DNA from: a virus
Direction: 5' to 3' (one strand)
DNA: 28,335 nucleotides
IMG/VR virus record: IMGVR_UViG_3300033978_000352
Location: 1-28,335 of that record
The notes beneath the pieces are model-generated. The model did not search any database. It saw only the letters and a program-made list of their open reading frames with translations, and was not told the DNA's origin. Within the stretch, counting starts at the first letter, position 1, and each line of letters opens with the position of its first letter. A program made the translations under genes and the position numbers. Shown piece by piece: positions 13,184 through 28,294 of the stretch.

Positions 13184-13184
13184 C

Positions 13185-15221: not shown

Positions 15222-16469
15222 TTATCCAGCTTCTGGGTACCATTGTTTCTTGACTTTTTGACGAGAAAATCCTTTGTCTGTGTCTACAAAATACTCGCGG
15301 TCTCCAATTAGAGTTCCGCTTCTTGTCAAAGACTGTCCGCCAAGAGAGGCGACAACTCCTTTACCTACCCAGTTTGCTGCTTGAGCTGCGACTGCCTTAC
15401 CCCACGTTGATTGCAAGTAGCTGTAGTCTTTCACTGACTCAAACTCCCAGTCGTCAGGCAGGCCTTGAATACGCGCTGCTTCTCGATGAGTAATTAGACG
15501 AGGCTCTGTAGGGTGAACAACATGATCTAGTGCTGAGCCAGTTAGCACGTTCGCCCAAAGATCTTTTCTCCAACGATACGGTTGAGAAAATCCTAAGTTA
15601 AAGTCGTTAGCAAGAATATTTGCACCAAGATTTTCCCAAGTCTTTGGAAACTTATTGCCATTTGCTTCATAAGCTTTTTTAAGATTTGTTCCAAGATCTT
15701 CACTGTTTTTCCAACCATCGTTGCCTACGATGTCAAACACATCTTTAACTCGCTGAGCATGAATATTTGTCTTGCCAATGTGCCCGTTTACCATGCCAGT
15801 CTCAGATCTAAGATGCGCAATAATTGGTGAAGCTGGCGCAGTGTACTTCTGTGCTTCCCACTGCAGAGGCATCTTTGCGAGATCTCCAATAACTTCCATA
15901 AGCCGTGGTAGACGTCCTACAATCGGCTCTTCAACACTAAAAGGCATTCCACCTCGTGTTGCAACCCAAAAGTATCGCGGCCGGTACGAGAATCCGCCTA
16001 CGTGCAAGTTGTTGTGCTTAACGTGATAGAGGTCGTAGCGTTTACCGCTTAGTTGTTCGACCATGTCTCTGTATTGAACCATGACGTCTCGCCCTTGAGT
16101 GAAAGCTTGTTGCACGCACTCAAATACAATTATTTCAGGAGCAACTTTTGCCGCGTAGCGCATAAACGCGCGTGTATGCTCGTGCGCTGCTGAGTCTGGA
16201 CCACGGTTTGCAGGACCCGACCATACAGACCAACCAGAGCACGGCGGACAACCCATGACAACATCTGCATCTTTTACTGGCCATTCGTCTTCTTTACTTG
16301 AGAAGAAAGAATCCCACTTGTCACCAAGAAACTTGCGGTTTACCTCTGCGACTTTGTTGCCAAAGTCTAAAGTTCCAGTGCGCAACGTCATTTCCATTCC
16401 AGCCTGAGTAAAGCCGTAGCTCATGAACCCAGCAAGACCGTTGCAGTCAATAAATGTTGGTTTTTCCAT
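15222..16469 (-). CDS. C5-cytosine DNA methyltransferase
   Basis: The ATG at 16469 follows ACGGACAAACT, the same type of ribosome site as the next gene; a TTG six codons upstream is less likely. The 415-residue protein shows C5-methylase motifs in order: I, FIDCNGLAGFMSYGFTQAG (6-24); IV, GCPPCSGWS with catalytic C77; VI, FECVQQ with E117 (ECV in place of the usual ENV); VIII, RPRYFWVA; IX-X, THREAARIQGLPDDWEF. A 100-150-residue recognition region lies between VIII and IX. The enzyme would methylate cytosine C5 in a specific sequence, perhaps against host restriction. No cognate endonuclease is visible. Its coexistence with a hydroxymethylcytosine-type pathway is notable. Confidence 0.85.
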   Translation of the reverse strand: MEKPTFIDCNGLAGFMSYGFTQAGMEMTLRTGTLDFGNKVAEVNRKFLGDKWDSFFSSKEDEWPVKDADVVMGCPPCSGWSVWSGPANRGPDSAAHEHTRAFMRYAAKVAPEIIVFECVQQAFTQGRDVMVQYRDMVEQLSGKRYDLYHVKHNNLHVGGFSYRPRYFWVATRGGMPFSVEEPIVGRLPRLMEVIGDLAKMPLQWEAQKYTAPASPIIAHLRSETGMVNGHIGKTNIHAQRVKDVFDIVGNDGWKNSEDLGTNLKKAYEANGNKFPKTWENLGANILANDFNLGFSQPYRWRKDLWANVLTGSALDHVVHPTEPRLITHREAARIQGLPDDWEFESVKDYSYLQSTWGKAVAAQAANWVGKGVVASLGGQSLTRSGTLIGDREYFVDTDKGFSRQKVKKQWYPEAG

Positions 16470-16500
16470 AGTTTGTCCGTTATCCAATCAGTTGTTTAAT

Positions 16501-16526: not shown

Positions 16527-16820
16527 CTACAAACTAGCGTCGATTTCGCCGACTTCATAACCACACGCGGCGTACCCAGCTATATCTACCCATGTGTCTG
16601 GCTGAAATCCAGACTTAGAAGCGTAGCGAGCAACCTTTACAGCTACCATAGCCATTGCGACATCTTCTTTTGTCACTTCAATTCCAAAAATCACTGACCA
16701 CAGCTTTGCAATTCGTTCAAAGTTGTCTTCTGGTCCTCCGTACTGTTTAGCTCTTGCTCCAGAGATAATGTCACAGGCTTCAGCAAGCATTCTTTCTCTT
16801 GCGGTGCTGTTCTTTTTCAT
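16527..16820 (-). CDS. DUF6378-like phage protein
   Basis: This 97-residue protein has the pattern RAKQYGGPEDNFERIAKLWSV (about 23-43), then VTKEDVAMAMVAVKVARYAS, and a final TWVDIAGYAACGYEV. This matches a small helical family widespread in phages (annotated DUF6378), whose function I do not know. The spaced acidic residues loosely recall all-alpha pyrophosphatases, but a clear ExxE/ExxD metal site is not evident. The ATG overlaps the stop of the upstream gene by 4 bp (ATGA), placing it in the nucleotide-metabolism part of the minus-strand operon. Confidence 0.65.
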   Translation of the reverse strand: MKKNSTARERMLAEACDIISGARAKQYGGPEDNFERIAKLWSVIFGIEVTKEDVAMAMVAVKVARYASKSGFQPDTWVDIAGYAACGYEVGEIDASL

Positions 16821-17014
16821 TTGTCTTCAGTCCGTGCTCTAATTTGTACGTTACCAACGTACTCGTCGGCGCTGTGAGACACTATATGAATCTCAGTGTC
16901 GCGAGGAAGCACCGCGGTTGAATTATCTGTAAGATCACGCCATTCTTTCTCTGCGTTTTCTGCAATTTCGGCAATTGTTTTGCCGTAGACTTTGTACTCT
17001 ATGAATTGGCGCAT
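16817..17014 (-). CDS. Small hypothetical phage protein
   Basis: This 65-residue protein has an N-terminal strand-helix (IEYKVYGKTIAEIAENAEKEWRDL), then a polar stretch and a strand (TEIHIVSH), ending RARTEDK. No family function is known to me. It overlaps the upstream gene by 1 bp and the downstream DUF6378-like gene by 4 bp, so it is translated as part of the operon. The composition is normal for a soluble cytoplasmic protein, with no membrane segment or Cys cluster. Confidence 0.6.
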   Translation of the reverse strand: MRQFIEYKVYGKTIAEIAENAEKEWRDLTDNSTAVLPRDTEIHIVSHSADEYVGNVQIRARTEDK

Positions 17015-17433
17015 TATTTGATCCTTTTTTCCAGCGCGTACGGAGAATAGTGAACTCCATCAAGAAGCGGTGTCTTACCGTCTGTAGACTTAAAAATCAC
17101 GTCTCCATAGCGTACTGCAACTACCTTCCCTCTGCGTCCATTGTGAATGCGACCAGTTTCATCTGTAAACGCGTCTATCTTCACACGAATAACATCACCA
17201 ACTACGATGTTTCCAGGCTGCGCGGGCACCCAGGTTTCATCAGGCGCATCTTCTGTAAGCGGAATGTTTTGCGCAAACTTAGTGAACAGCTCAATAACTT
17301 CTTGGTTTTGCTTTGAACTGTGCTTGCCTTTTTCCCAAGCGGCAAGCAGCTCAAGTACTGTGTTGCCAACTCCTACCCTTATCTTGTGAGCCTGTAGTTG
17401 CTCACGAACCCATTGATAATCTACGCTTGGCAT
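17014..17433 (-). CDS. Hypothetical protein with a KOW/SH3-like C-terminal part
   Basis: This 139-residue protein has a helical N-terminal half (YQWVREQLQAHKIRVGVGNTVLELLAAWE) and a beta-rich C-terminal half (VVGDVIRVKIDAF...NGRRGKVVAVRYGDVIFKS). The latter resembles the small barrel of KOW or SH3-like domains that bind nucleic acid or protein. The resemblance is by eye and the function is unknown. It shares 1 bp with the pyrophosphatase gene upstream and 1 bp with the small gene downstream, indicating coupled translation. Confidence 0.6.
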   Translation of the reverse strand: MPSVDYQWVREQLQAHKIRVGVGNTVLELLAAWEKGKHSSKQNQEVIELFTKFAQNIPLTEDAPDETWVPAQPGNIVVGDVIRVKIDAFTDETGRIHNGRRGKVVAVRYGDVIFKSTDGKTPLLDGVHYSPYALEKRIK

Positions 17434-17900
17434 TACTTAACCTTTCCAGGACATTCTTGTTCAGGGCACGTGCTTACGTCAAAATCATCTAAAGCACGAG
17501 TGCATTTACTACACTTGACGCCGTCACTTTTGACTTTGTATCCTTTGATTTGACGCTGTCTGTTGACTTCCATCTTGTTGACGTAGTACGAGTCCAGTTG
17601 CTGGTCAGTTCCACCGACTGCGCATATTATGTTCGCAACAAAATGCAAAATGTCAACACACTCTTTAATCACTGCCTCGCGATTAACGTACGGATCATCG
17701 TGTTGCCACGGCTTCCACGAGATCTCTTTGCGCACCTCGGCGAGCTCATCGTCTATCGCGAGCATGTTCCAGCGCAAGTACTCAATGATATTGTTTAATT
17801 CCTGCGGCTGACTGCCTTCAAACTTCTCATAAGACACACCATATGACTCTTGCTGTAGCTGCTTAGTCTTTGCCAGCCAGTCGTTGAATAATAGTCCCAT
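17433..17900 (-). CDS. All-alpha dCTP/dUTP pyrophosphatase-like protein with C-terminal zinc ribbon
   Basis: This 155-residue protein carries the all-alpha NTP pyrophosphatase signature: D51-E52-x2-E55 (DDELAEVRKE), a W-K-P-W linker, then E80-x2-D83 in KECVDILHFVANI, and Y105Y..NKMEVNRQRQIKGY. The spacing and the DILHF...KGY part resemble the T4 gp56 dCTPase/dUTPase as I recall it. Such enzymes hydrolyse dCTP and dUTP to monophosphates, keeping plain cytosine out of phage DNA and supplying dCMP. Residues 130-150 add Cys pairs (C130, C133, C145, C150), a likely zinc ribbon not needed for the fold. It is encoded 6 bp after the glycosyltransferase pair. A MazG-type or dUTPase-only role is the alternative. 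Confidence 0.75.
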   Translation of the reverse strand: MGLLFNDWLAKTKQLQQESYGVSYEKFEGSQPQELNNIIEYLRWNMLAIDDELAEVRKEISWKPWQHDDPYVNREAVIKECVDILHFVANIICAVGGTDQQLDSYYVNKMEVNRQRQIKGYKVKSDGVKCSKCTRALDDFDVSTCPEQECPGKVK

Positions 17901-17906
17901 ATGTCC

Positions 17907-18932
17907 TTACTGTAGTTGTAAATGTGTTTCTAGCGTTTGTAAAACTGTAGATCTATCTGGAATTTTATCAGCATATTGTTCTTTTTGGCTGAATGACAGG
18001 TCAATTCTATCAAAAGGATCAAGATCTTCAACGGCTGAAGCAATATAATTCCATGCATCACCGATGGCGCCACTGTCTCGCCAGTCGGTAACAACAGGAG
18101 TAATCGTGTTCATTGCGTAGGCAAACATCGGACTCCACCAAGACCCGTCTCGCCCATGAGGAGAAATTGCGGCGCCAGAAGAACCTTCAAGTTTTGTTTT
18201 AAGTGACGCGTCGGTTGATTTGTATCCGTCTTTCGCCGCGGTAAACGGAAACTTTGACGTCGCTGCAACTCGTTTAGTCCAACTTGAAGTTACGTCACTT
18301 GCCACCCAAACGTGCTTTTTTACGATAGCTTTTTCTACAGCCGTGGTTGATGGTGTGTCAGACACAAGGTAAGAATCAACATTGACTGGCTTTAGCGCTT
18401 TTGCGGCGTTATCTCCTACTTGAGCACACACTTTGTAGTGGTTGTTCCACGGCAGCTCTGGGTACAAACATGTCTTCCAGTTGTCGTTCAACAAATAGTC
18501 AACAGCTGAAAGAAGCTTATTTTTAACTCCAGGACGCGCTGCTTCGAAGTACTCTTTACGTGATGAGTAGAACTGTTTGACAATATTCTCTGGAGCTGTG
18601 CTAATTGCGCGCAGACTAGAAAAAATCTGATGCGGAGCCGGAGCGTCGATGAACATAATCAACTTATCACTGTCTTTAAGCGCGTCTATTACGCTGAGGC
18701 CGCCATACGCGTAGTTAGCTGACACGCTTGTGATTGGAGATACACCAGCAACTACAGCGTCATACTCGTCTAAAAACGCAGCGTCCCATTCAACAGAAGG
18801 CGGTTCATGGGTGACGTCGTAGCCTGCTTTCTCAAGGATATCGACAAGAACTCCTGAAAACTGCAGGGTTCTAAGATTAGCGCGAATAGACGACTGCGAT
18901 GACGTCATTCCCGTAACTAGTACTTTTTTCAT
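17907..18932 (-). CDS. Putative GT-B-like glycosyltransferase, second of a tandem pair
   Basis: This 341-residue protein has an N-terminal Rossmann-like half: VLVTGM at 4-9, GVLVDILEKAGYDV (27-40), then YDAVVAG and LIMFIDAPAPHQI with D96. The C-terminal half has ISPHGRDGSWWSP (256-268) followed by TPVVTDW (278-284), the same layout as the upstream paralogue. Position and pattern of D96 recall the catalytic Asp region of T4 beta-glucosyltransferase, which glucosylates hydroxymethylcytosine. This is a motif-level resemblance, not a proven family match. It overlaps the upstream paralogue by 4 bp (ATGA) and precedes the dCTPase-like gene. It may transfer a second sugar or form a heterodimer. Confidence 0.55.
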   Translation of the reverse strand: MKKVLVTGMTSSQSSIRANLRTLQFSGVLVDILEKAGYDVTHEPPSVEWDAAFLDEYDAVVAGVSPITSVSANYAYGGLSVIDALKDSDKLIMFIDAPAPHQIFSSLRAISTAPENIVKQFYSSRKEYFEAARPGVKNKLLSAVDYLLNDNWKTCLYPELPWNNHYKVCAQVGDNAAKALKPVNVDSYLVSDTPSTTAVEKAIVKKHVWVASDVTSSWTKRVAATSKFPFTAAKDGYKSTDASLKTKLEGSSGAAISPHGRDGSWWSPMFAYAMNTITPVVTDWRDSGAIGDAWNYIASAVEDLDPFDRIDLSFSQKEQYADKIPDRSTVLQTLETHLQLQ

Positions 18933-20134
18933 GCGACTGTGCCGTCTGGGTTGAGTTTAAGTCCTCTATCTTCAGTAGCTGCTCGTGTAACAATTCTGTT
19001 GCAGTGCTCGACGAACGATTGGTACGTTGGCATGTGCGGACGAAGCGCCGCCGACTGTGCGTCGGCTGCTTCTTTGAGTTCGGCGTCGTTCATAGCCTCA
19101 ACCTGGCGGATAGTTAGTTTATATGGAGCGCCAAGTGGGTCGCCTTCTCCTTTATCAGTCACAAGAATTGAACCGACGCGAGCGGCGTACATGAATCGGC
19201 TACGCCACCAGCCTGACCCAGCGTGCGGGTATGGCGGCGACAAGATTCCCCAGTGATCATTGTAGAAGCCGAGAACATCAGCTTCAGTCTGAAAGCGCTG
19301 ACCGCCGTATTTGCGAATAAGTTTTCTACTGCCTACGATTTCAACTGGCCACGCAGGGCTCTTTCTTTCCAACCATGTGTCGTGAGGCATCAACGCGCCA
19401 AGAACCCACGAACGCTTTTTTGTAGCCGCGTCAGCAGGTGTGACTGCTTCAAGGGTGTCATATATCGTTGAGCTCGGATCAAGGGCCTCGATTGGTCCCA
19501 TAACGCTAGGCATGCGCTTACGAACTAACGTTCTGTTTCCAAATCCATACATTGGGCACGCTGGCACCATGCCTGCTGCCCATCGCTTTTCTAAGAAGTT
19601 TTTTGCAGACTCGACGATCATATTTTCATAAGGTTTTACAGCATCATCAGTGTCAAGCGAGTAGTACCTGTCGATGTAGATCTTGCCTACTGCGTTTGGA
19701 TTAAGAGCAATTGCGCGTGCATATGCGGCTTCAGCGTCAGCTCTGCTGAAATAGGTTGCGCTTTCATCACCGCGTTCTCCAGTAAGAAGATATTTGTAAA
19801 TCATTTCTGGGTGACGACCCAAAGCTCTGGCACCGTTAAACACCGCGCTGAACTGCCAGTCATCAAAAAATCCAACGCATGGGCGACCAGAACCAAGCGC
19901 GTACAACGAGCCCATAGCGCCTTGACGGCCATTTAACGAGTTTAAAGGAGCAAGATTGACCCACACGACGTCATAAATAGAAAGATCTTCTCCTGGTGTA
20001 ATTTTACGCCAGTCAACTTCGTGGCCAGATTCTCGTAGTGCTTTAACTATTGAGCCAGGGACGTCAATTTTTTGAATTGTTCGTCGTTCTGTGTTGATCT
20101 GTAGCGCGGTAAAACCTGACATTAGGATTTTCAT
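18929..20134 (-). CDS. Putative GT-B-like glycosyltransferase, first of a tandem pair
   Basis: This 401-residue protein starts after AAAAGGAATCACAT. The N-terminal half reads ILMSGF, GSIVKALRESGHEVDW (27-42), YDVVWVNLAPLNSLNG (54-69) and GRPCVGFFDDWQF with D91/D92. The C-terminal half has PYPHAGSGWWRSRFMYAARV (301-320) then GSILVTDKGEG. Gene 17907-18932 shares this layout, so the two are paralogues. The N-terminal order (nucleotide-binding strand, YD..V-N, then an FxD motif) parallels T4 beta-glucosyltransferase. With the dCMP-hydroxymethylase-like gene in the same operon, modified-DNA glycosylation is the best guess. A sugar transferase for other phage products remains possible. Confidence 0.55.
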   Translation of the reverse strand: MKILMSGFTALQINTERRTIQKIDVPGSIVKALRESGHEVDWRKITPGEDLSIYDVVWVNLAPLNSLNGRQGAMGSLYALGSGRPCVGFFDDWQFSAVFNGARALGRHPEMIYKYLLTGERGDESATYFSRADAEAAYARAIALNPNAVGKIYIDRYYSLDTDDAVKPYENMIVESAKNFLEKRWAAGMVPACPMYGFGNRTLVRKRMPSVMGPIEALDPSSTIYDTLEAVTPADAATKKRSWVLGALMPHDTWLERKSPAWPVEIVGSRKLIRKYGGQRFQTEADVLGFYNDHWGILSPPYPHAGSGWWRSRFMYAARVGSILVTDKGEGDPLGAPYKLTIRQVEAMNDAELKEAADAQSAALRPHMPTYQSFVEHCNRIVTRAATEDRGLKLNPDGTVA

Positions 20135-20151
20135 ATGTGATTCCTTTTCTT

Positions 20152-20250
20152 CTAGTCGTCGTCTTCTACGCCTCTGTCACCGCAGAACGGGTCGACAGGA
20201 GCTGGTGACTTACAAGCACACGGATTGTTGCGTTTTCCAATAATTGTCAT
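20152..20250 (-). CDS. Cys-containing 32-residue miniprotein
   Basis: The gap between the glycosyltransferase and the ssDNA-binding gene holds a short frame from ATG (minus strand, 20250) to TAG at 20152. The start is preceded by AAGGAACTT, a good ribosome site at normal spacing. The product begins MTIIGKRNNPCACKSP and ends in an acidic GVEDDD tail; three Cys (C-x-C plus one) could bind metal. No homologue is known to me. A longer frame through this region (to 20616) is an out-of-frame shadow of the Ala-Pro repeat and is not real. Confidence 0.5.
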   Translation of the reverse strand: MTIIGKRNNPCACKSPAPVDPFCGDRGVEDDD

Positions 20251-20326
20251 AAGTTCCTTAAGTAGATTAGTGTAAGACGCCGCTCCACCGAAGCAGAGCG
20301 ACGTCTTACGGGCGTTCCAAGTAAAC

Positions 20327-20872
20327 TTAGAACGGTGCGGTTGGCGCTGGCGCCGGAGCAGCTGCGGCCGCAGCAGCAGGCGCTGCGGCTGGCGCCGGAG
20401 CTGGTGCTGGTGCTGGTGCTGGAGCAGGCGCTGGTGCTGGTGCAGCAGCTGCTGCGGTTGCAGCAGCCTGAACAGCGTAGTACGCCTTAATTTCGTTCTT
20501 TTTCTGACCTTGCCATGTTCGTGATCCAATCTGCGCGCGGAACGATCGACCTTTGAGGATCTGTTCAATCTGAGCGTTTGTAGGACTCTGAGCAAAGTAC
20601 TCCCGGTTAAGACCAAGAGAATTCATCTTGCGAAAGAAGATTCCAAGTGCTGTCGGGTTATCGGTTGAAACAACGAGGTTGTCCCAAACAAGGCGCTTTG
20701 CGTGCGCTCCAGTCTGGACTTGCGCCTTTACGGCGAACATCGTCTTTCCTGTTTGTGTTACTTTTGCTACAGCTTCCACGATCTGAAGATCGTAGTCACC
20801 GTCCGGAAGCGGGTCGTAATTTCCGGTGTCTGCTGCCTCTTTGACGAGGTCTCCCCAGTTTAGGGTATTCAT
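20327..20872 (-). CDS. DUF669-like single-stranded DNA-binding protein with Ala-Pro tail
   Basis: This 181-residue protein has an N-terminal domain (about 1-130) with the DUF669/phage SSB-like pattern: YDPLPDGDYDLQIVEA near 19-34, TGKTMFAVKAQVQTG, KRLVWDNLVVSTDNP, then a LGIFFRKMNSLGL helix and a QIGSRTWQGQKKNEIKAYY strand. Such proteins sit beside Sak4-type recombinases and are thought to coat ssDNA. Residues 136-181 are an almost pure Ala-Pro repeat ending PTAPF; the hydrophobic end recalls the final residues of bacterial SSB tails that recruit partners, though the usual acidic residues are missing. It lies 30 bp after the ATPase gene. An SSB role is inferred from family and context. Confidence 0.7.
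   Translation of the reverse strand: MNTLNWGDLVKEAADTGNYDPLPDGDYDLQIVEAVAKVTQTGKTMFAVKAQVQTGAHAKRLVWDNLVVSTDNPTALGIFFRKMNSLGLNREYFAQSPTNAQIEQILKGRSFRAQIGSRTWQGQKKNEIKAYYAVQAAATAAAAAPAPAPAPAPAPAPAPAPAAAPAAAAAAAPAPAPTAPF
20330..20467 (-). repeat. Low-complexity Ala-Pro coding repeat
   Basis: The 3' end of the ssDNA-binding gene consists of repeated GCA/GCT/CCA/CCG-type codons giving alternating Ala-Pro and Ala runs. Such tracts expand and contract easily, so tail length may vary among relatives. Confidence 0.85.
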
Positions 20873-20902
20873 TGTCTGTTACCTATCTTTCTGTCTCGTG
20901 GT

Positions 20903-21655
20903 TTATTTTTTTGCTTTTGGTTTTTCACCAAACACAATATCAAGCATTCGCTCAATACCGAGGTTTTCCTGCTCGACAATTTTGCCGAGTCTACCTTGAA
21001 CGCGTTCTCCAGCTTCAAACTGGTTAGTTCGCTCAACGTACATACGACGCGCCTTGTATGGAGGCTGCGTAGGGTCGCCTGTTGAGAATTCTTCAACAGT
21101 AATCGCTCCTAAGATGTCGTAGAAATACGGCGCCTGAATTGCAAGTTGACCTTGCAAGTACGGACGATAACGACCGTCCTGGCTTTGACGTGCCATTGCG
21201 GTGAGGACTACAGCCTCGAGCGGAGCAGTCGGGTGCATCGTCAAGTCACGAAGGTCACGCAATAGCGCTCCCATGTGACGAAGAAGTTCGCCCCATTGCT
21301 GCATCTGCATTTGATTTGTACCGGCAATGTTATCCATGCACTTAACTTGTAGTTCAGACACGGAGTCAATAATCAGTGACTTAAACTGGTGCTTACCCAG
21401 CTGCAGCCACTGATACGCCTTAAGCACTGTGTCATACTCTGTCACGTTTACAACGCATGTATCCCAAGTTCCGTCTGCTACTGGTGGTTCTTCCCGTAGC
21501 GGATCCCAGTACTTAACATTGATTGGCAAGAATCTATGTCCGCCTTCAACGTCAAGCATGAGACGAGGATACGGTGCTGTCACCGCAAATGTTGATTTAC
21601 CTACCTTAGACTCTCCATAGACCATCATGGTCAAGGAGCGTTGTACTTCACCCAT
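20903..21655 (-). CDS. Sak4-like RecA-fold ATPase (phage recombination)
   Basis: The ATG at 21655 is placed 9 bp after GGAAG; a GTG at 21661 in a GTGA overlap is an alternative start. The protein (250 residues from the ATG) has Walker A GESKVGKST at about 14-22, a Walker B strand FKSLIIDSVSE near 90-100, and a sensor-like AVVLTAMARQ. This is the AAA_24/Sak4 pattern: short RecA-like ATPases that promote single-strand annealing with an SSB partner. Immediate neighbours are a Cas4/RecB-like nuclease upstream and the DUF669-like SSB downstream, a common phage recombination module. The C-terminus is Lys-rich (GEKPKAKK). Confidence 0.8.
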   Translation of the reverse strand: MGEVQRSLTMMVYGESKVGKSTFAVTAPYPRLMLDVEGGHRFLPINVKYWDPLREEPPVADGTWDTCVVNVTEYDTVLKAYQWLQLGKHQFKSLIIDSVSELQVKCMDNIAGTNQMQMQQWGELLRHMGALLRDLRDLTMHPTAPLEAVVLTAMARQSQDGRYRPYLQGQLAIQAPYFYDILGAITVEEFSTGDPTQPPYKARRMYVERTNQFEAGERVQGRLGKIVEQENLGIERMLDIVFGEKPKAKK

Positions 21656-21657
21656 TG

Positions 21658-22608
21658 TCACTCACTTCCTTTTATGTCTCTTGATTTGTAGTATTCATAC
21701 GGGTCGGCGACCTCGTACATCTCAGTGATTGCGTTCTCGGCGGCGCTTCCGTCGTCGATAAGCGGACAAACACTAAAGAACTGACACTTCCATTTGCAGT
21801 CACGACTAGGCCGTGGGTATGCAACGAAGTGATGATCGTGGCCTTCATCAAGCGACTTTTTTGTCTCCATCAAGTCTTTGATTGTTCCATGAATTCTTGC
21901 CCAAAATGATCGCAATGCGAACACATTATGGCGAACTTCCATTTGTTCGTAGAACGGTGGCCTTGCGTTTGCTGAACGCTTGACCTTTTTTAGCATTGTA
22001 AAGATGCCACCTTCACTTCGTTCTCCTTCCTTATTTTGCGCTGTCTCCAGCATCATATAAGTAAGGATCTGCTCATTCATGTGAGCCATTGAGGTGAAGT
22101 CTGTGAATGATCCGCCGACTGTCTTAAAGTCACGGAACATACGCACACCGTCACCGCGACGACGAACACGCATGTCAAGTTTACCTTGAAGTTCGACTGC
22201 ACCGTCAAACAAAGGCATGCTGATTATTTCTTCAGTTGAGATCATTTCAAGCTCGGCATCAATACCGTTCTCTTCTACCCATTGAAGATATCCTTCAAGC
22301 ATGATGCGCCCAAGTTCGGCTTCACTGTCAAGGTCTACAGTGTCACGGTAACTGTCGATAAGAGCCTGCTTGTCACGGTCTACGAACATCGAGTGCGCCT
22401 CAAGCAGCGGAATACCTTGGCCGTAGTACGCGTCAAGCGCGTTGTGAATTCTAGAACCAAGCGCCAGCGCGCCGGTCATGTTTTGAGTCTTTGGTTGAAG
22501 ACGTCGGTAATACGCCAACCACCACTTGCGTCTGCAGTCTTTGTATGTCTGCAGCTCGCTGTTAGAGAGCTTGTACGGCATGTTTACTTGTGTGACTGTA
22601 TCTGTCAT
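21658..22608 (-). CDS. Cas4/RecB-like PD-(D/E)XK exonuclease with Fe-S cluster ligands
   Basis: This 316-residue protein has LSNSELQTYKDCRRKWW at 14-30, GSRIHNALDAYY (51-62) with H55, a nuclease core GKLDM (D145) followed by RDFKTVGG (D160, K162), and a QILTY motif (Q180, Y184). C25 plus C271, C275 and C281 give the four Cys of the [4Fe-4S] cluster seen in Cas4 and AddB nucleases. These enzymes resect DNA ends; in phages they feed ssDNA to Sak4-type recombinases, as the gene order suggests. The ATG overlaps the SNF2 helicase stop (TAATG). There are no CRISPR genes nearby, so this is a replication/recombination nuclease. Confidence 0.85.
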   Translation of the reverse strand: MTDTVTQVNMPYKLSNSELQTYKDCRRKWWLAYYRRLQPKTQNMTGALALGSRIHNALDAYYGQGIPLLEAHSMFVDRDKQALIDSYRDTVDLDSEAELGRIMLEGYLQWVEENGIDAELEMISTEEIISMPLFDGAVELQGKLDMRVRRRGDGVRMFRDFKTVGGSFTDFTSMAHMNEQILTYMMLETAQNKEGERSEGGIFTMLKKVKRSANARPPFYEQMEVRHNVFALRSFWARIHGTIKDLMETKKSLDEGHDHHFVAYPRPSRDCKWKCQFFSVCPLIDDGSAAENAITEMYEVADPYEYYKSRDIKGSE

Positions 22609-24398
22609 TACGCTTTCTCCGATCGCAACATATCTAGAAGTTGCGCCTTATCTCGAACGATTTGTTCGAAGTTGTCTGCTTTTGTATCTAGCACTTGAAT
22701 TACACGCTCTTCAATGGTGTCCTCTGTTACGTAGTCCATAATGACGATGCTGTCATGAATTTCACTACCAATGCGGTGTACTCTGTCCATTGCTTGTTTA
22801 TGATCAATAAGTGACCATGGACGTTGAAGCATGACAAGTCGTCTAGCCGCGGTAAGAGTGATGCCAACGCCTCCAGCCTGAGCAGTGAACAATATCCATT
22901 TAATTTTTCCAGACTGGAAGTCATCAACGGCTTGCTGGCGTTCGTCCTCATTTTGCGCGCCTGTAATTAACCCGTGAGGTATCTTTTTAGCAGTCATCTG
23001 AGCACTTAGTAGTTCAATAAGTTGGCGAGATACTGCGCATACAGCGACAGAATCATCACCAAAGTCTCCATTTGATATGTCGTCCATAAGCGCGTCTACC
23101 TTGCACGATGGCTCTGCAAGAAGCGCTTTTATTTCACCAGTGTCTTCGTCAATATCTAACTGCGCGTACGAGCTGGCAAACTGCAGAAGACGTATAGTCT
23201 GAGTTAGCGGACTTGGCGCTGTAAGAGCGTCTCCACCTTCAAGTTCAGCAATCATAAGATCACGCATTTGCTGATACGCTTTCTTTTGCTTAGTAGACAT
23301 CTCAACATCACGACGCTCTGTGACTACTGGCGGAAGCCACTGCAACACCTTAGCTTTGAGCATTCGACGCATTCTTGGATTTATCGCCGCGTAAAATTCT
23401 TCTTCCATATGAGGTTTTACGCCAAGAACCATCATTCCGCCAAACGCATTCAACATGGTGTTAATCATGCGATCAACCCAGCGAGTCTTGCTTGGCCATT
23501 CTTCAGGCGATAGCCAATGAAGAATCGGCCAAAGATCTAAAACGTTATTGGCGATAGGTGTACCTGTAAGAGCAAATCTAAATTTTGCGCTGCCTGTTGC
23601 CGCCCAAAGTGCACGCGTCTGTTTTGATTTAGGCTCTTTGGAGCGGTGAATTTCGTCGGCAATGACTGAGTTAAAGTCAATTTTATTAAGTTCACGAATA
23701 TGAACTTCACAGCGGTTTTCTGTGACCTTTTCATCATGGCCGCCGCAGTCACGGCAGCGTGCTAACGATACCGAGCCATAAGAAGCCAGCCGTGAGTGAC
23801 CTCGAAGAGATTCCCAGTTAATGACAAATACGTCAACATCTTCCTCAAACTGTTTCCGTCGTTGCATTGCTGAACCTTTGACTACCTGCACTTTTACATC
23901 TGGCCACCATCTGGCGAATTCTCTTTCCCAGTTCTTTTTAAGCGTGTTTGGGCAAACAACAAGCGCGGGGAACACTTTTTCACCGCGGCTGCGAAGTTCT
24001 TTAAGCGCCGTTATTGCTTGTGCTGTTTTCCCAAGACCAGGCTCATCAGCAAGAAGTGCCCTGTGTGCCGTAGCAAGAAACTGAACACCAGCGCGTTGGT
24101 GAGGAAACAGCGTGTCTTCACCGTCAATTGCTTCAACAGAACGAAGAGCGTTAGCAGGCGCAACGCGTGTCAATAGCTCATTTGTCGCCCAGTCAGTTAA
24201 CCGCTGGCCAATGACAAGTTCTGACTTAAAAGTTGATCGCAACGCTAGACACGTTGCCCAGCCGACAGGTGTTTTCCACGTTTGCTCGCTAGACGACCAC
24301 GTAGCGCCTGGGATACTCTTGCACAGCTCTTTGTAACGCCATTCAGCGTTAATAATTATGTATCTACCCGTGCTATCGAGTTCTGCTTGTACTGTCAC
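22608..24398 (-). CDS. SNF2-family DNA helicase/translocase
   Basis: This 596-residue protein starts with GTG after AAGGATTGTGTAG. A HARP-like N-terminal segment (about 10-60) precedes the ATPase: FPHQRAGVQFL (98-108), Walker A DEPGLGKTA (118-126), VCPNTLKKNWEREF (148-161), DEIH (248-251) and LTGTPIANN. A zinc-finger-like insert C215-x2-C218...C230-x2-H233 lies just before the DEIH box. The second lobe has WILFTAQAGGVGITLTAA and QAMDRVHRIGS. SNF2 proteins of this size are common in phage replication blocks and remodel or translocate on DNA; the exact role here is inferred. A 13-bp inverted repeat lies in the 90-bp gap upstream, and its TAA overlaps the nuclease ATG. Confidence 0.9.
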   Translation of the reverse strand: MTVQAELDSTGRYIIINAEWRYKELCKSIPGATWSSSEQTWKTPVGWATCLALRSTFKSELVIGQRLTDWATNELLTRVAPANALRSVEAIDGEDTLFPHQRAGVQFLATAHRALLADEPGLGKTAQAITALKELRSRGEKVFPALVVCPNTLKKNWEREFARWWPDVKVQVVKGSAMQRRKQFEEDVDVFVINWESLRGHSRLASYGSVSLARCRDCGGHDEKVTENRCEVHIRELNKIDFNSVIADEIHRSKEPKSKQTRALWAATGSAKFRFALTGTPIANNVLDLWPILHWLSPEEWPSKTRWVDRMINTMLNAFGGMMVLGVKPHMEEEFYAAINPRMRRMLKAKVLQWLPPVVTERRDVEMSTKQKKAYQQMRDLMIAELEGGDALTAPSPLTQTIRLLQFASSYAQLDIDEDTGEIKALLAEPSCKVDALMDDISNGDFGDDSVAVCAVSRQLIELLSAQMTAKKIPHGLITGAQNEDERQQAVDDFQSGKIKWILFTAQAGGVGITLTAARRLVMLQRPWSLIDHKQAMDRVHRIGSEIHDSIVIMDYVTEDTIEERVIQVLDTKADNFEQIVRDKAQLLDMLRSEKA

Positions 24399-24435
24399 CT
24401 ACACAATCCTTCCGTCATTTCGTATGTCTATATTA

Positions 24436-24488
24436 CCATATACTAAGACACTTTACTGCAAGTTTGCAGATATTTTCTTAGTATATGG
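24436..24488 (-). promoter_or_regulatory. 13-bp perfect inverted repeat with nested hairpin before the SNF2 gene
   Basis: CCATATACTAAGA (24436-24448) and its exact complement (24476-24488) flank a spacer that itself holds the hairpin CTGCA-AGTT-TGCAG (24456-24469). The element begins right after the RuvC stop and ends 37 bp before the SNF2 start. No T-run follows on the minus strand, so an operator or mRNA structure is more likely than a terminator. A TAATAT just downstream on the minus strand is a possible -10. Confidence 0.7.
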
Positions 24489-24959
24489 CTATCTAAGCAA
24501 TTTCATTGGTTTCCAACCAGTCTTTACTAAGCGAAGAAGCCCGTGTCTTATTGCGTCAAGAGCGTGACCTTCTCCACCTCTATGCCAGTACTCTAGCTTT
24601 TTAAGAGCGTCGTTAGAGAACATCTTCTTCGCGTCTGATGGAGATTGAAAAATCAATTCATCAGGGTCAATTCCGTTGTCAAGCATAATGTACTTCAAAA
24701 TACCAATCTGCTCCAAACTATACGGAGCTTGCGAGTTCCTTACTGTCTGCGCATTTATAATAAACCTCTCGCATACGATCTCTACTTTAGAGTCTGTTGC
24801 TTTAGCATATTTAAGCGTTTCGTAGATAGGCAAGTGGTACTCTTTCATTTGGTACTCACCAGACTTCTCAAGCACAGGCTCTCCGCCTGGCGTAATTGAG
24901 AAAGTGCAGATACCGCTTGCTTTACCCGGATCTACTGAAAGAATAATTCTGTCGCCCAT
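24489..24959 (-). CDS. RuvC-like Holliday junction resolvase
   Basis: The ATG at 24959 overlaps the polymerase stop (TAATG) and follows GGGGAGAAAA; an ATG six codons upstream lies inside the polymerase gene and lacks a ribosome site. The 156-residue protein has the RNase-H-fold signature of RuvC: ILSVDPGKASG with D10, VEIVCERF with E64, and GHALDAIRHG with H132 and D135. It would cut branched DNA arising in replication and recombination or before packaging, as phage resolvases do. It follows the polymerase and precedes the SNF2 helicase. Confidence 0.85.
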   Translation of the reverse strand: MGDRIILSVDPGKASGICTFSITPGGEPVLEKSGEYQMKEYHLPIYETLKYAKATDSKVEIVCERFIINAQTVRNSQAPYSLEQIGILKYIMLDNGIDPDELIFQSPSDAKKMFSNDALKKLEYWHRGGEGHALDAIRHGLLRLVKTGWKPMKLLR

Positions 24960-26782
24960 TAGTACTTTTCTCCCCATGTTTCAAGTGGACCATCAATACC
25001 TGCAGTTAGCGGAACTGCCCAGCCGTCTGAAGTTGTCATGCACTGCTTTACAATTCTTTTTATTTCTTCAGCGTCTTTTCGCGGCGCGTTTAGCACGATT
25101 TCGTCGTGCACTGGAACGATCAACAGTTCTGTCAAGTCTGCTTGGTCGAGTTTCACAAGATTTGATTTGAACACTTCAGCAGCTCCACCTTGAATAAGGT
25201 AATTGACAAGAGTGTATACACGATCTTCGTCGCACGGCAGTCGACGGCCTGTCCATGTGTAGACATAACCTTGACCTTCGTCGCGGAGCCGACGCATTCC
25301 GGCGTCTTCAACTTGCTTTTGAAAGTACGACATTCCAGGAAAACGCAGGTCAAAAGCGTCAGATACAGCGCGCATTTGCGGTTCTGCAACGCCTGCTGTA
25401 ATCGCCTGTTTTGCAACTCCAGCGCCATAGAGTCTTCCGTAGACCGTGCCTTTTATCAGTCCACGACGCTTGTCTGAGCGTTCCATTGTCGGGTCTGCAT
25501 ATATTTCACGACCAATCTCAGTAAAGGGGTCAGACCCGATTGAGTCAGCGCGGTTAAACAGATCAATCAAATTGTTGTCATTTGAAAGACTTGCGAACAT
25601 TCTAAATTCGACTTGGTCTAAGTCTGATGTAACAATTACGTGATTTTCATCTTTTGGAAGAAACGCCCTGCGCACTACATCGTCGCCTTTTGGCAGTGTC
25701 TGCAGCGCCGGGTTTTGTATTGACATGCGTGAAGTTCTAGCACCTAGAGTCTTCACAGACGGGTGAACAAACCCATTGACATTTTCGCTTAAAAAGTTAG
25801 AAAAATAGGTATTGGCAAGTTTGTCGGCCTTGCGCTGTTTTAGAACTATGTCAGCAAGTTGCTTGACTTCATCGTTGCCGTTGATTTTAAGAATCTTCAA
25901 TTGGTCTTTAGTGCACGATTTCTGCCCTGTTGGCGTAAACTCTGTGATCTCTGCTCCGATACTCTCGAACAAGCGAACTAGTTGTTGATTGCTAGTGATT
26001 GACGCGCCACCGTACGTCTGCTTGGCCCAGGTTTTTACTGACTCGGTGTACGTCGTAAGTTCTTCGTATTTCTTTTTTGAGTACTCAAGATCTACTCGTG
26101 CGCCATTCAGCTCCATACGAGTGACGATGCGACGAGTCTGCATTTCAAGTTCATAAGGCTTGTGGTACGGCCCATCTGGACCACACTGCTTATAGAACAT
26201 TTCCCACAGCCGTGTAGTTAGCACGCAGTCTAGCGCGCCGTACGACCAGTAAGGTTTGAAGTCTACTGGAACTGTTCCCCAAGTCCAGCCGTTCTTAGCA
26301 AGTTCTTCATCAAGTGTGTTTTGTAGAGTTACAGCGCGGCCATCGACGTGCAAAGCTGCAAGTCGTTTAAGCGCTCCTGAGCCTAGTGGATCGATGATGT
26401 GCGCCATAATCATCGTGTCGTGTGCGCGGTGCCACGGCATCTTCCAACGCGATTGAACATCAAACCAACGAGCTTCAAACGCAATGTTGTGACAGATCAG
26501 CGGTCCGTCAAATTTATCCATTGCTTCATAGAAAACACCTGCCCATTCTCCCCATGGAATTGACCAACCTTGTTCTCCATCACCAACCTGCACTAAGCGC
26601 AGTCGACCATGCCATGGCGAGAACGCGTGCTCTCTAGGATTGCCAGGCAGTTCGCCAGTTTCTGTGTCTACAGACAGCGCGTCGTATGGGCGACGCTGGC
26701 TAAGCCAGTGTATGAAATCACTTGCCTTTTGTGAGCTATCAACCAAATGAAGCTGCACGTTTGCAAGATTATCAGTCGACAT
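24959..26782 (-). CDS. Family A DNA polymerase with 3'-5' exonuclease domain
   Basis: This 607-residue replicative polymerase lacks a 5' nuclease domain. Exonuclease (about 1-200): D39-T-E41, HNIAFEARWF with E103 where Asp is more usual, and Y181-GAL-D185. Polymerase: motif A SDLDQVEFRMF, motif B RRGLIKGTVYGRLYGAG, motif C VPVHDEIVL. In motif B a Tyr stands where E. coli Pol I has F762, as in T7 polymerase, a feature linked to poor discrimination against dideoxynucleotides. Its 5' end overlaps the dCMP deaminase stop by 11 bp and its 3' end overlaps the resolvase start. If the genome contains modified cytosine, this enzyme must accept it. Confidence 0.93.
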   Translation of the reverse strand: MSTDNLANVQLHLVDSSQKASDFIHWLSQRRPYDALSVDTETGELPGNPREHAFSPWHGRLRLVQVGDGEQGWSIPWGEWAGVFYEAMDKFDGPLICHNIAFEARWFDVQSRWKMPWHRAHDTMIMAHIIDPLGSGALKRLAALHVDGRAVTLQNTLDEELAKNGWTWGTVPVDFKPYWSYGALDCVLTTRLWEMFYKQCGPDGPYHKPYELEMQTRRIVTRMELNGARVDLEYSKKKYEELTTYTESVKTWAKQTYGGASITSNQQLVRLFESIGAEITEFTPTGQKSCTKDQLKILKINGNDEVKQLADIVLKQRKADKLANTYFSNFLSENVNGFVHPSVKTLGARTSRMSIQNPALQTLPKGDDVVRRAFLPKDENHVIVTSDLDQVEFRMFASLSNDNNLIDLFNRADSIGSDPFTEIGREIYADPTMERSDKRRGLIKGTVYGRLYGAGVAKQAITAGVAEPQMRAVSDAFDLRFPGMSYFQKQVEDAGMRRLRDEGQGYVYTWTGRRLPCDEDRVYTLVNYLIQGGAAEVFKSNLVKLDQADLTELLIVPVHDEIVLNAPRKDAEEIKRIVKQCMTTSDGWAVPLTAGIDGPLETWGEKY

Positions 26783-27254
26783 CTTTATCCTTGACTAGCG
26801 TGACAACTAAACTGCACTTTTCCATAAACGCGACGACATCATATGGTCTACGATGCATGTCAGCCTTGCGCAGTCTAGACACTACTCTGCGTATTCCTGA
26901 GTTTGAAATAAGCTTAGCGCACTGCATGCACGGCACACTTGTTATGTAGATAGTTCCATTCTCGCTTCGTGATCTATCAACGTACAGAAGCGCGTTTGCC
27001 TCTGCGTGAACAGCAGGGCAAGCATCATATAAGTTGTCAAGTGGGCTTAAACCTTTAGCGCGATCGCACCAGTTGATGCAGTCGCCTGACTCTGGCCAAC
27101 TAGCGGCTGGTCCATTGTACCCAGTGGCAACAATGTGTTGATCATGAGAAACGATCACTGCGCCCATCTGCGCCCGCGTGCATCGAGATCGCGCAGACAC
27201 GATGTCAGCGACGGACAACCATGTATCGTCCCAAGACAACCTTTTAAGCGTCAT
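26772..27254 (-). CDS. Deoxycytidylate (dCMP) deaminase
   Basis: This 160-residue protein has the zinc deaminase motifs H83-A-E85 (CPAVHAEANAL) and P-C109-x2-C112 (SVPCMQCAKL), with the N-terminal CTRAQMGAVIVSHD and the ATGYNGPA loop typical of dCMP deaminases. The enzyme converts dCMP to dUMP and so adjusts the pyrimidine pool. In a genome with a dCMP-hydroxymethylase-like enzyme it would compete for the same dCMP, as the T4 cd product does. An additional Cys pair region (GDCINWCDRA) lies at 57-65, as in phage dCMP deaminases that bind a second zinc. The gene ends inside the start of the polymerase gene (11-bp overlap). Confidence 0.9.
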   Translation of the reverse strand: MTLKRLSWDDTWLSVADIVSARSRCTRAQMGAVIVSHDQHIVATGYNGPAASWPESGDCINWCDRAKGLSPLDNLYDACPAVHAEANALLYVDRSRSENGTIYITSVPCMQCAKLISNSGIRRVVSRLRKADMHRRPYDVVAFMEKCSLVVTLVKDKDVD

Positions 27255-27434
27255 TTACTCTTCTTCCTTGTTGTTTTCTTCGATTATAGAGCCAACTGTG
27301 CCGGTCAGTATTTTTGCAACAAGTTCTAACGCCTCTTTGCGACTGAATCCTGCACGTCTAAACTCTGAAAACACTTCATGCATCTGTACAGCAACGCTTC
27401 TAAGTGGGCTTGGATAGTCGTCGTCTTCTTTCAC
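27255..27434 (-). CDS. Small acidic helical phage protein
   Basis: This short gene of 59 residues starts with GTG at 27434, in a GTGA overlap with the stop of the ThyA-family gene, after an excellent AAGGAGAGCAA ribosome site. The product starts VKEDDDYPSPLRSVAVQMHE (first residue read as Met), continues with a helix rich in Phe/Arg (VFSEFRRAGFSRKEALELVAKIL) and ends in an acidic tail. The pattern resembles small actinophage proteins of unknown function encoded near nucleotide-metabolism genes. It ends directly before the deaminase start. No enzymatic motif is visible. Confidence 0.7.
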   Translation of the reverse strand: MKEDDDYPSPLRSVAVQMHEVFSEFRRAGFSRKEALELVAKILTGTVGSIIEENNKEEE

Positions 27435-28294
27435 TTGCTCTCCTTTTTGAAGTTCTTCTCTATAGCCGAAATCATCGCGTCAGTGTACCACTTTTGATCT
27501 GGAGTTAGCCGTTGACGGATGTACTCATCAAACACCGCGTCAAGCGCATGACGGGCTTTTGCCTCTACTTGCGTCCATGAAGACCCAGTTATTGGCGGTA
27601 TCGATTCAATAGAGCTTCGCTCTACATGATGTAGATCTTCAGCTACTTCGTAGTGCTGCTCGTACAAATGCAACGAGCCGACATGATGTCCGTACGTCCC
27701 TGGCTCAATTCCAAGTATAGACGCCATGGCGATTTGTACTCTAGTAAACTGAAAAAAGTCATATGCAGCGCCAAGCCAGACGTCATTGGATCTCATGTAG
27801 ACGCTCATGTTAAGTCTGTTATTGCGAATTCTAAACTGATGAAGAATAGTGCAAGGGTAGTCGCGTTTGTTTGATTGCAAGTCTAATTCTGGGTCCCAGA
27901 TAGTTACAACTGCTTGCCGCGTACTAGGATCGTTTTTAAGTCTGTCTAGCGCCTTAGCGTACTGTGTGTGCGTGCGTAGACCGTACGCGCCGTGAAACAG
28001 TCCGTTGTCTTCTGCAAAATTTTTGAACTGCGGACCGACGGCTATGACTGTCTTTGGATAGCTTACGCCAGCAATTAGCTGACAAGCTTCGACTGCGCCA
28101 ATGCCAGGCACCGCGCCGCGGCTGACGCCAACAGGCAGAGTATTATAGACGTTATCAATGAAGACAGTGGCATCTTCAATTTCTTTAGTTTGCTGCCCGC
28201 GCGGAGCAACTTCTTTGCCATACTTAAGAACCCAGTTAACAAGATCGACGTAGCCGTTCACTCCGTCTTCAACACGAATTACCGTAGTGTCCAT
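27431..28294 (-). CDS. ThyA-family enzyme, probable dCMP hydroxymethylase
   Basis: This 287-residue protein starts after AGGGAGAG. It has the thymidylate synthase fold markers: the catalytic Cys in YPCTILHQF (C148), STRQAVVTIWDP, MRSNDVWLG (167-175) and VGSLHLYEQHY with H209 and Y211. Where ThyA has the Asn that reads uracil (E. coli N177), this protein has D179. In T4 gp42 (dCMP hydroxymethylase) the same change sets cytosine specificity, and the PCT, MRSNDV and VGSLH.Y words agree with gp42 rather than ThyA, as I recall those sequences. It would make 5-hydroxymethyl-dCMP from dCMP and methylene-tetrahydrofolate. The usual ThyA C-terminus (PxIxxxxAV) is absent. A plain thymidylate synthase is the less likely alternative. 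Confidence 0.8.
   Translation of the reverse strand: MDTTVIRVEDGVNGYVDLVNWVLKYGKEVAPRGQQTKEIEDATVFIDNVYNTLPVGVSRGAVPGIGAVEACQLIAGVSYPKTVIAVGPQFKNFAEDNGLFHGAYGLRTHTQYAKALDRLKNDPSTRQAVVTIWDPELDLQSNKRDYPCTILHQFRIRNNRLNMSVYMRSNDVWLGAAYDFFQFTRVQIAMASILGIEPGTYGHHVGSLHLYEQHYEVAEDLHHVERSSIESIPPITGSSWTQVEAKARHALDAVFDEYIRQRLTPDQKWYTDAMISAIEKNFKKESK

Follow-up and report, generated by a model that had tools for sequence, protein, structure and literature searches.

A candidate cytosine-replacement and glycosylation module in an actinophage genome fragment

The 28,335-bp IMG/VR virus record IMGVR_UViG_3300033978_000352, analysed here over its whole length (hereafter the window), contains a minus-strand block of genes that reads as a cytosine-replacement and glycosylation module, and glycosylated 5-hydroxymethylcytosine (hmC) is likely in the DNA of this actinophage (rough probability 0.77, from sequence comparisons and structural models). 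A T4-like hypermodification pathway of this type had been proposed in a first-pass annotation of the same DNA, and it is supported here by dCMP-hydroxymethylase residues in a ThyA homologue, an enzyme of the T4 gp56 family, two glycosyltransferases (GT1 and GT2) with predicted GT-B folds, a kinase-like gene in the related loci and conservation of the module in other phages. The genes named in that annotation all proved to be open and on the minus strand, at the positions given in Table 1.

Read from gene content, gene order, active-site residues, folds and co-occurrence, the proposed reactions would begin with the enzyme encoded at 17433-17900, which would convert deoxycytidine triphosphate (dCTP), and deoxyuridine triphosphate (dUTP), to the monophosphate. 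The ThyA homologue would then add a hydroxymethyl group to deoxycytidine monophosphate (dCMP) to give hydroxymethyl-dCMP (hm-dCMP), a kinase-like protein encoded upstream beyond the window would take the first step toward hm-dCTP, to be completed by host enzymes, and the phage family A polymerase would incorporate hm-dCTP into DNA. GT1 and GT2 would glycosylate hmC with one sugar or two, DNA being the presumed acceptor, either sequentially or as alternatives, while dCMP deaminase would direct part of the pool to deoxyuridine monophosphate (dUMP) for thymidylate.

Results

The ThyA homologue carries dCMP-hydroxymethylase residues

The residues of the ThyA homologue were read from an alignment with T4 gp42, SPO1 gp29 and Escherichia coli ThyA, using criteria that distinguish dCMP hydroxymethylases from ThyA (PMC6400193, section 20; PMC8670742, section 11), and the family was represented by 60 rows, corresponding to 54 distinct cores with the window and Actinomycetia phage DSL-LC01 copies counted in. 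Asp at the position of T4 D179 (E. coli ThyA N177), Asp at T4 D145, three residues ahead of the catalytic Cys, the catalytic Cys itself (T4 C148), Thr at T149 and Ser at S169 were present in the window protein and in 60/60 family rows. The same hydroxymethylase residues were found in Gordonia phages GodonK, GMA2 and Sixama and in two further lineages. In addition, the C-terminus of the window protein (the feature was judged for this protein) lacks the APVAI-type tail of E. coli ThyA. By its residues, the window protein is a dCMP-type hydroxymethylase, placed outside the T4 gp42 clade by the position of T4 S94 discussed below. A plain thymidylate synthase was rejected on the dCMP-type specificity residues. 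The best PDB match was MilA, a CMP 5-hydroxymethylase, yet the window protein carries the deoxyribose-type Ser and Arg, and a CMP hydroxymethylase of the MilA kind was also rejected.

In Micrococcus phage Kurnik, the slot of the same module is occupied by a T4-type hydroxymethylase (with S94, D145 and D179) that shares 45-52% identity, among the matches listed, with ThyA-family proteins of T4-like and other phages, one of which is named dCMP hydroxymethylase. The use of two ThyA lineages by one module points to hm-dCMP as their shared product. Among the matches listed, ThyA homologues of Microbacterium phages (191 records) also matched T4 gp42, at 25-30% identity.

dCTPase and kinase-like genes

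The comparison with T4 gp56 that had been suggested for the dCTPase/dUTPase-like enzyme placed the two proteins in one family at the profile level (hhalign 97%, E 9.9e-11, 95 columns, 26% identity). The ExxE...ExxD metal-binding motif corresponds to E52/E55/E80/D83 of the window protein, with E55, E80 and D83 invariant in 19 rows. The dCMP deaminase and family A polymerase of the same block were likewise confirmed by Pfam (Table 1).

The first-pass annotation had seen no kinase for hm-dCMP and had placed it outside the window or in the host. The record ends just past the ThyA homologue; in contigs L002 and L003, whose hydroxymethylase and GT1 are identical to those of the window, the next gene upstream encodes a P-loop kinase-like protein, and its DSL-LC01 counterpart is annotated as thymidylate kinase. 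Of 80 viral loci recovered with the hydroxymethylase, some of them overlapping or duplicate, 73 had enough upstream sequence, and the kinase-like gene was directly 5' of the hydroxymethylase in 73/73 of these partly redundant loci. Its profile found a match in YorR (2axp; 6.1e-9), an uncharacterised protein of prophage origin. The gene probably fills the kinase gap, as judged from its sequence and position. In its C-terminal part, the protein (L002, 9006-10013) also has some 130 conserved residues that match no Pfam family and that by eye we take to resemble a uracil-DNA-glycosylase-like domain.

Recurrence and gene order of the module

The module was found, with insertions, in DSL-LC01, in GodonK, GMA2 and Sixama, and in Kurnik, its recurring parts being the hydroxymethylase, dCMP deaminase, polymerase, RuvC-like, helicase, nuclease, RecA-like and DUF669-like proteins, the glycosyltransferases, the dCTPase and a C5-methyltransferase homologue. 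Gene order was strongly conserved in loci that are partly redundant, GT1 being followed by GT2 in 70/70, GT2 by the dCTPase in 63/63 and the deaminase by the polymerase in 73/73. Across 37 records examined (22 picked by the hydroxymethylase, 10 by the C5-methyltransferase and 5 named phages), a ThyA-family gene was present in 36, a GT1-profile match in 34 and the C5-methyltransferase homologue in 32. In DSL-LC01, the Gordonia phages and Kurnik, the genes bear the names thymidylate synthase, methyltransferase or methylase, glycosyltransferase or hypothetical.

Two paralogous GT-B glycosyltransferases

GT1 and GT2 had no meaningful Pfam match, and their families are paralogues (hhalign 99%, E 4.5e-18). 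In the models, which are confident (mean pLDDT 84.6 for GT1 and 92.8 for GT2), the fold of both is the two-domain GT-B. Each protein has a conserved Asp (D92 in GT1, D96 in GT2); the catalytic Asp of T4 beta-GT is Asp100. The top Foldseek PDB match of GT1 was T4 beta-GT (1qkj, E 8.1e-5), the TM-score over the model being just 0.45, and by VIA GT1 matched T4 beta-GT 1nzd with Z 16.3 and a root-mean-square deviation (rmsd) of 4.5 over 301 aligned residues. The same structure was the top VIA match of GT2 (Z 18.0, rmsd 3.7, 296 aligned). The VIA matches listed for the two proteins are glycosyltransferases. The Foldseek search with GT2 returned a chimeric glycosyltransferase (4rii) on top and T4 alpha-GT at rank 15. 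A search of the PDB with the GT1-family profile gave nothing useful, and no Escherichia phage was matched in the GT1 search. The earlier description of two tandem glycosyltransferase-like proteins is therefore upheld as paralogous GT-B folds near T4 beta-GT; a sequence-level kinship to beta-GT was dropped, as the profile comparison was not significant.

Genomic context is a stronger argument than the fold for a role of GT1 and GT2 on hmC. The GT1 relative of Morganella phage Rgz1 has as neighbours a gene annotated as arabinose-5-phosphate isomerase and a nucleotide-sugar gene, in a group beside the DNA polymerase. In Aeromonas phage Aes508 it adjoins a UDP-galactopyranose mutase, and in DSL-LC01 a UDP-galactopyranose mutase lies between GT1 and GT2. 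This mutase was rejected as a general part of the module, being carried by just 2/41 records. In a further lineage (L388, 7140-9594), the glycosyltransferase slot holds an HAD-like match under its cut-off, a MobA-like nucleoside triphosphate transferase just at its cut-off and a 439-amino acid (aa) frame without family, which suggests that a sugar nucleotide is made by the phage.

A C5-methyltransferase homologue with Lys at motif X

A gene that had escaped the first-pass annotation, on the same strand as the module, encodes a C5-cytosine methyltransferase homologue with GK at the GN of M.HaeIII, so that Lys replaces the motif-X Asn. The catalytic Cys of PPC, the motif VI Glu and the motif VIII Arg were invariant in 16 aligned sequences, and the catalytic Cys was present in 81/84 distinct open reading frames (ORFs), the other three having no readable column. 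Two members of the family (G014:C1:15123-16370 and G017:C1:32929-34179) contain one in-frame stop each.

Among the matches listed, and with identical ORFs and gap rows removed before counting, the motif-X position was Lys in 103/103 distinct family ORFs with a readable column; counted by segment, Lys was present in 171/171 family segments with a letter in the column (99 distinct), a further 9 having a gap. The residue was kept down to 32% identity. Bacterial comparators showed Asn in 74/79 rows, Pro in 4 (attributed to an apparent alignment slip at AFPPPVA) and Asp in 1. Among other viral relatives, nine had Asn and two, phage G and S-TIM5, had Gln. The bacterial-genome scan covered 80 distant loci of 121 relatives, and the viral scan likewise covered the matches listed, so that closer relatives were possibly missed in both.

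Lys-type genes and ThyA-family genes showed near-complete co-occurrence. A ThyA-family gene was present in 15/17 Lys-type records that were picked by the C5-methyltransferase and lie outside the hydroxymethylase list (8/9 and 7/8, with some near-duplicates). These 17 are what is left of 20 records (10 + 10) after removal of L213, L381 and L349, whose contigs had been recovered with the hydroxymethylase as well, the distant relatives L395, L396, L398 and L400 being excluded from the set of 20. In the two records without the gene, L236 and L354, the C5-methyltransferase gene is <6 kb from the contig end expected to hold the hydroxymethylase. A ThyA-family gene was present in 0/6 readable-Asn records (a small sample, partly fragments) and was also absent from L395, whose motif-X column is unreadable. 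Both Gln-type phages carry a ThyA homologue in which position 177 is Asp. In cyanophage S-TIM5 (L263, L257) this homologue, in which the N177, L143 and H147 positions are occupied by Asp, Cys and His, respectively, lies ~2.4 kb from the Gln-type C5-methyltransferase homologue and, by these residues, is a possible dCMP methylase.

The Lys-type homologue is genetically part of the module. It is an accessory, since it is truly absent from record G004, where GT1, GT2, the dCTPase and DUF6378 are kept, and was not matched in G011, although that contig extends about 2 kb beyond the expected place. In the lineage of L250 (4130-5045), which keeps GT1, GT2 and the dCTPase, the genes for DUF6378 and the pyrimidine dimer glycosylase have no such homologue between them; in G002, G013 and G022, which lack it, the contig stops before the expected place.

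Passages of PMC12783734 describe CmoX, in which an Arg at the motif-X position contacts the carboxymethyl group of carboxy-S-adenosylmethionine (Cx-SAM) and whose R350N variant uses neither Cx-SAM nor S-adenosylmethionine (SAM), as well as an engineered M.MpeI N374K, with the same Asn-to-Lys change as here, that uses Cx-SAM. A CmoX-type carboxymethylation was accordingly followed for the Lys-type family. CmoX is recognised by Arg at the HhaI N304 position together with SPPC, and the window protein has Lys and GCPPC. Searches of 15 distinct records (11 + 10, with 6 common to both), several being fragments, gave no TIGR00740 match to CmoA, the carboxy-SAM synthase, and the candidate was lowered on account of the missing CmoA and SPPC. 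A 170-aa methyltransferase of DSL-LC01 gave just weak generic matches under the cut-off and was rejected as a CmoA-like protein.

Two readings of the Lys-type homologue were considered. It may tentatively be taken as a plain 5-methylcytosine methylase with host or residual cytosine as its substrate, Lys being a neutral lineage marker: the three catalytic residues are invariant, the gene is wholly absent from one lineage and the Lys-type proteins form one family, for which a single ancestral change would be enough. A neutral marker is harder to reconcile with the loss of both Cx-SAM and SAM use in CmoX R350N (PMC12783734, in the passages found), which argues that the site matters, with the constancy of Lys among the matches listed down to distant relatives, or with the co-occurrence with ThyA-family genes. 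It is unlikely, though conceivable, that hmC phages have in this protein a DNA-modifying enzyme of a new kind instead of a methylase, in which case Lys would suit a charged SAM-like donor or a cytosine already hydroxymethylated at C5. C5-methyltransferases are described in passages of PMC11347137 as attacking hmC in DNA covalently, presumably with release of its hydroxymethyl group, so that a role directed at hmC is chemically possible. Such an enzyme would add a third covalent step on cytosine in these phages to hydroxymethylation at the precursor level and glycosylation.

Organization of the window and predicted host

The window consists of a rightward gene block followed by the leftward replication block with the module (Table 1). 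The actinobacterial host proposed earlier from the WhiB gene finds support in the Pfam match of that gene and in the relatives of the module among Gordonia, Micrococcus and predicted Actinomycetia phages. On the plus strand, the gene at 11444-13183 encodes a family 2 glycosyltransferase domain with tetratricopeptide repeats (TPR) and overlaps a small SAM methyltransferase gene (13173-13700); this glycosyltransferase may act in virion glycosylation instead of the cytosine module. The protein encoded at 1712-3667 has a Peptidase_S74 domain near its C-terminus (3308-3487) and is probably a tail protein.

Table 1. Features of the cytosine module and neighbouring genes in the window (pLDDT, predicted local distance difference test).
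Feature	Coordinates	Strand	Evidence
Predicted dCMP hydroxymethylase, ThyA superfamily	27431..28294	-	PF00303 1.2e-23; MilA best PDB match; dCMP-hydroxymethylase residues; no ThyA tail
dCMP deaminase	26772..27254	-	PF00383 9.9e-19; phrog_174
Family A DNA polymerase	24959..26782	-	PF00476 (DNA_pol_A) 6.6e-53; weak 3'-5' exonuclease match PF01612 0.0019, under its cut-off
RuvC-like resolvase, replication block	24489..24977	-	phrog_1981 (no function label); DSL-LC01 ortholog annotated RuvC-like resolvase
SNF2-type DNA helicase, replication block	22608..24398	-	PF00176 8e-43
PD-(D/E)XK nuclease	21658..22608	-	PF12705 5.8e-20
RecA-like AAA ATPase	20903..21661	-	PF13479 2.7e-19
DUF669 protein, 5' of GT1	20327..20872	-	PF05037 4.9e-8; 5' of GT1 in 68/70 loci
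GT1, GT-B glycosyltransferase, candidate hmC-DNA glycosyltransferase	18929..20134	-	AlphaFold model pLDDT 84.6; Foldseek
GT2, GT-B glycosyltransferase, GT1 paralogue	17907..18932	-	Model pLDDT 92.8; VIA
All-alpha dCTPase/dUTPase, T4 gp56 family	17433..17900	-	PF08761 (dUTPase_2) 2.5e-11; gp56 profile match
Small conserved cassette protein	17014..17433	-	Kept in related lineage L250
Small cassette protein	16817..17014	-	ORF; no PHROG, no Pfam match above cut-off
DUF6378 protein, absent from the first-pass annotation	16527..16820	-	PF19905 7.6e-28
C5-cytosine methyltransferase homologue, Lys (K364) for motif-X Asn	15222..16487	-	PF00145 2.8e-19; M.HaeIII alignment
Pyrimidine dimer DNA glycosylase	14645..15154	-	PF03013 2e-11
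WhiB regulator, host indicator	13678..14211	-	PF02467 8e-15

Discussion

Several observations count against glycosylated hmC in this phage. Ser or Thr at T4 S94 (two before Y96), which belongs to the published signature, is the mark of the gp42 clade, and the position is Gly in the window protein, in 60/60 family rows and in the three Gordonia phages, so that the dCMP-hydroxymethylase residues claimed earlier stand for the D179, D145 and C148 equivalents while membership of the gp42 clade does not; the catalytic Glu (T4 E60) falls in a gap of the main alignment and appears as Glu only in a second one. The matches of the kinase-like protein to thymidylate kinase models are under their curated cut-offs, the dCMP deaminase is close behind the hydroxymethylase in 67/77 loci and not in all, and the Lys-type homologue is left unexplained by the T4 scheme. 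As regards the glycosyltransferases, the profile comparison with T4 beta-GT was not significant (hhalign probability 0.95% for GT2 and 9% for the GT1 family), beta-GT was not among the best 50 Foldseek matches listed for GT2, and the GT1-family profile found no match in Kurnik. Rgz1 and Aes508 carry, besides a td-like gene, a further ThyA-family match, at the family level only, and in phage C48C1 a GT1 relative occurs without any gene of the ThyA family. Finally, the GT-B fold does not prove DNA as the acceptor, because 4rii is the top Foldseek match of GT2 and SenB (Z 16.9) ties with beta-GT (Z 16.3) in the VIA comparison of GT1.

This lack of specificity of the fold and the case of C48C1 would suit an alternative in which hm-dCMP is made and incorporated, the base stays plain hmC and the sugars transferred by GT1 and GT2 go to virion proteins or to the surface of the host, as would the virion glycosylation known in some actinobacteriophages (in passages of PMC13313380) and the link drawn by the DSL-LC01 authors between the mutase gene and the host cell wall (in passages of PMC10611076). 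The chance of this being correct is small, with GT1 and GT2 situated inside the replication-modification block, the dCTPase gene after GT2 in 63/63 loci and the GT1 relatives of T4-like phages adjoining sugar-nucleotide genes that resemble those of the RB69 arabinosyl-hmC module. A slimmer chance is left for a ThyA homologue acting as dCMP methylase and DNA containing 5-methylcytosine; Asp at ThyA N177 alone can convert ThyA to a dCMP methylase (PMC8670742, in the part consulted), but the water-activating D145 is present in 60/60 rows, the window protein lacks the ThyA tail and the glycosyltransferases would be left without an acceptor. Ordinary nucleotide metabolism, in which ThyA makes thymidine monophosphate (dTMP), a dUTPase acts against uracil and the glycosyltransferases are unrelated, agrees with the database names (thymidylate synthase, dUTPase) and is scarcely plausible in the face of specificity residues of the dCMP type and of a T4-type hydroxymethylase in the same module of Kurnik. 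Glycosylated hmC is thus retained as the preferred reading of the block.

T-even glucosylation and RB69 arabinosylation are already known, and no report of hmC in Gordonia phages, GMA2, Kurnik or actinophages was found in the titles and abstracts listed from the open-licence PMC literature. In the passages found, hmC in actinophages is not mentioned in the review PMC10286901, where Gordonia occurs just in one reference title, in PMC9957025 or in PMC11946847, which deals with a dUMP hydroxymethyltransferase of a Pseudomonas phage. Passages of PMC13313380 describe likely modified DNA of another kind in Rhodococcus phage Finch, through a Rosebush-type system, and those of the DSL-LC01 paper (PMC10611076) name the methyltransferase and mutase and no cytosine-replacement pathway. 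From the present analysis, glycosylated hmC is to be expected in Gordonia and Micrococcus phages that are currently annotated with an ordinary thymidylate synthase and a methyltransferase. If so, some actinobacterial hosts would be engaged in a modified-DNA arms race resembling that of T-even hosts, and their phages would supply two glycosyltransferase groups without a Pfam family and a methyltransferase homologue altered at the position by which CmoX selects its cofactor.

Comparison with known systems

The proposed module shares its logic with T4 hmC glucosylation (gp42, gp56, gp1, beta-GT and alpha-GT), namely a dCTPase, a dCMP hydroxymethylase, a monophosphate kinase, which in T4 is gp1, a phage polymerase and GT-B glycosyltransferases, with T4 gp56 and the window dCTPase belonging to one family. 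It differs from T4 in that the hydroxymethylase is of another ThyA clade (S94 = Gly), the polymerase is of family A, the glycosyltransferases show no sequence-profile link to beta-GT and the Lys-type C5-methyltransferase homologue is an addition. The sugar-gene neighbourhood of the Rgz1 GT1 relative, next to the polymerase, is much like the arrangement of the RB69 arabinosyl-hmC genes, a likeness drawn from passages of PMC6024577 and not from the RB69 sequence, whereas the window showed no sugar-nucleotide genes of this type. Compared with the window, the same module has an extra UDP-galactopyranose mutase between the glycosyltransferases in DSL-LC01, and a T4-type hydroxymethylase and other glycosyltransferases in Kurnik.

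CmoX of Synechococcus phage S-B43 and the engineered M.MpeI N374K (both in passages of PMC12783734) are likewise C5-methyltransferase homologues with a basic residue at the motif-X Asn. The window homologue has Lys in place of the Arg of CmoX and GCPPC in place of SPPC, and its partner is a predicted dCMP hydroxymethylase, with no CmoA match in the 15 records. A parallel cassette is present in the unrelated giant Bacillus phage G (L254, 218000-236000), where gp301-gp319 include, within about 15 kb, a C5-methyltransferase homologue (gp301), a pair of proteins annotated as alpha glucosyl transferases (gp309/gp310), a putative deaminase of CMP/dCMP and, as gp319, a ThyA homologue that bears the residues of dCMP hydroxymethylases. 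There, motif X is Gln, no GT1-family profile match was obtained and an annotated glucose-1-phosphate thymidylyltransferase is present.

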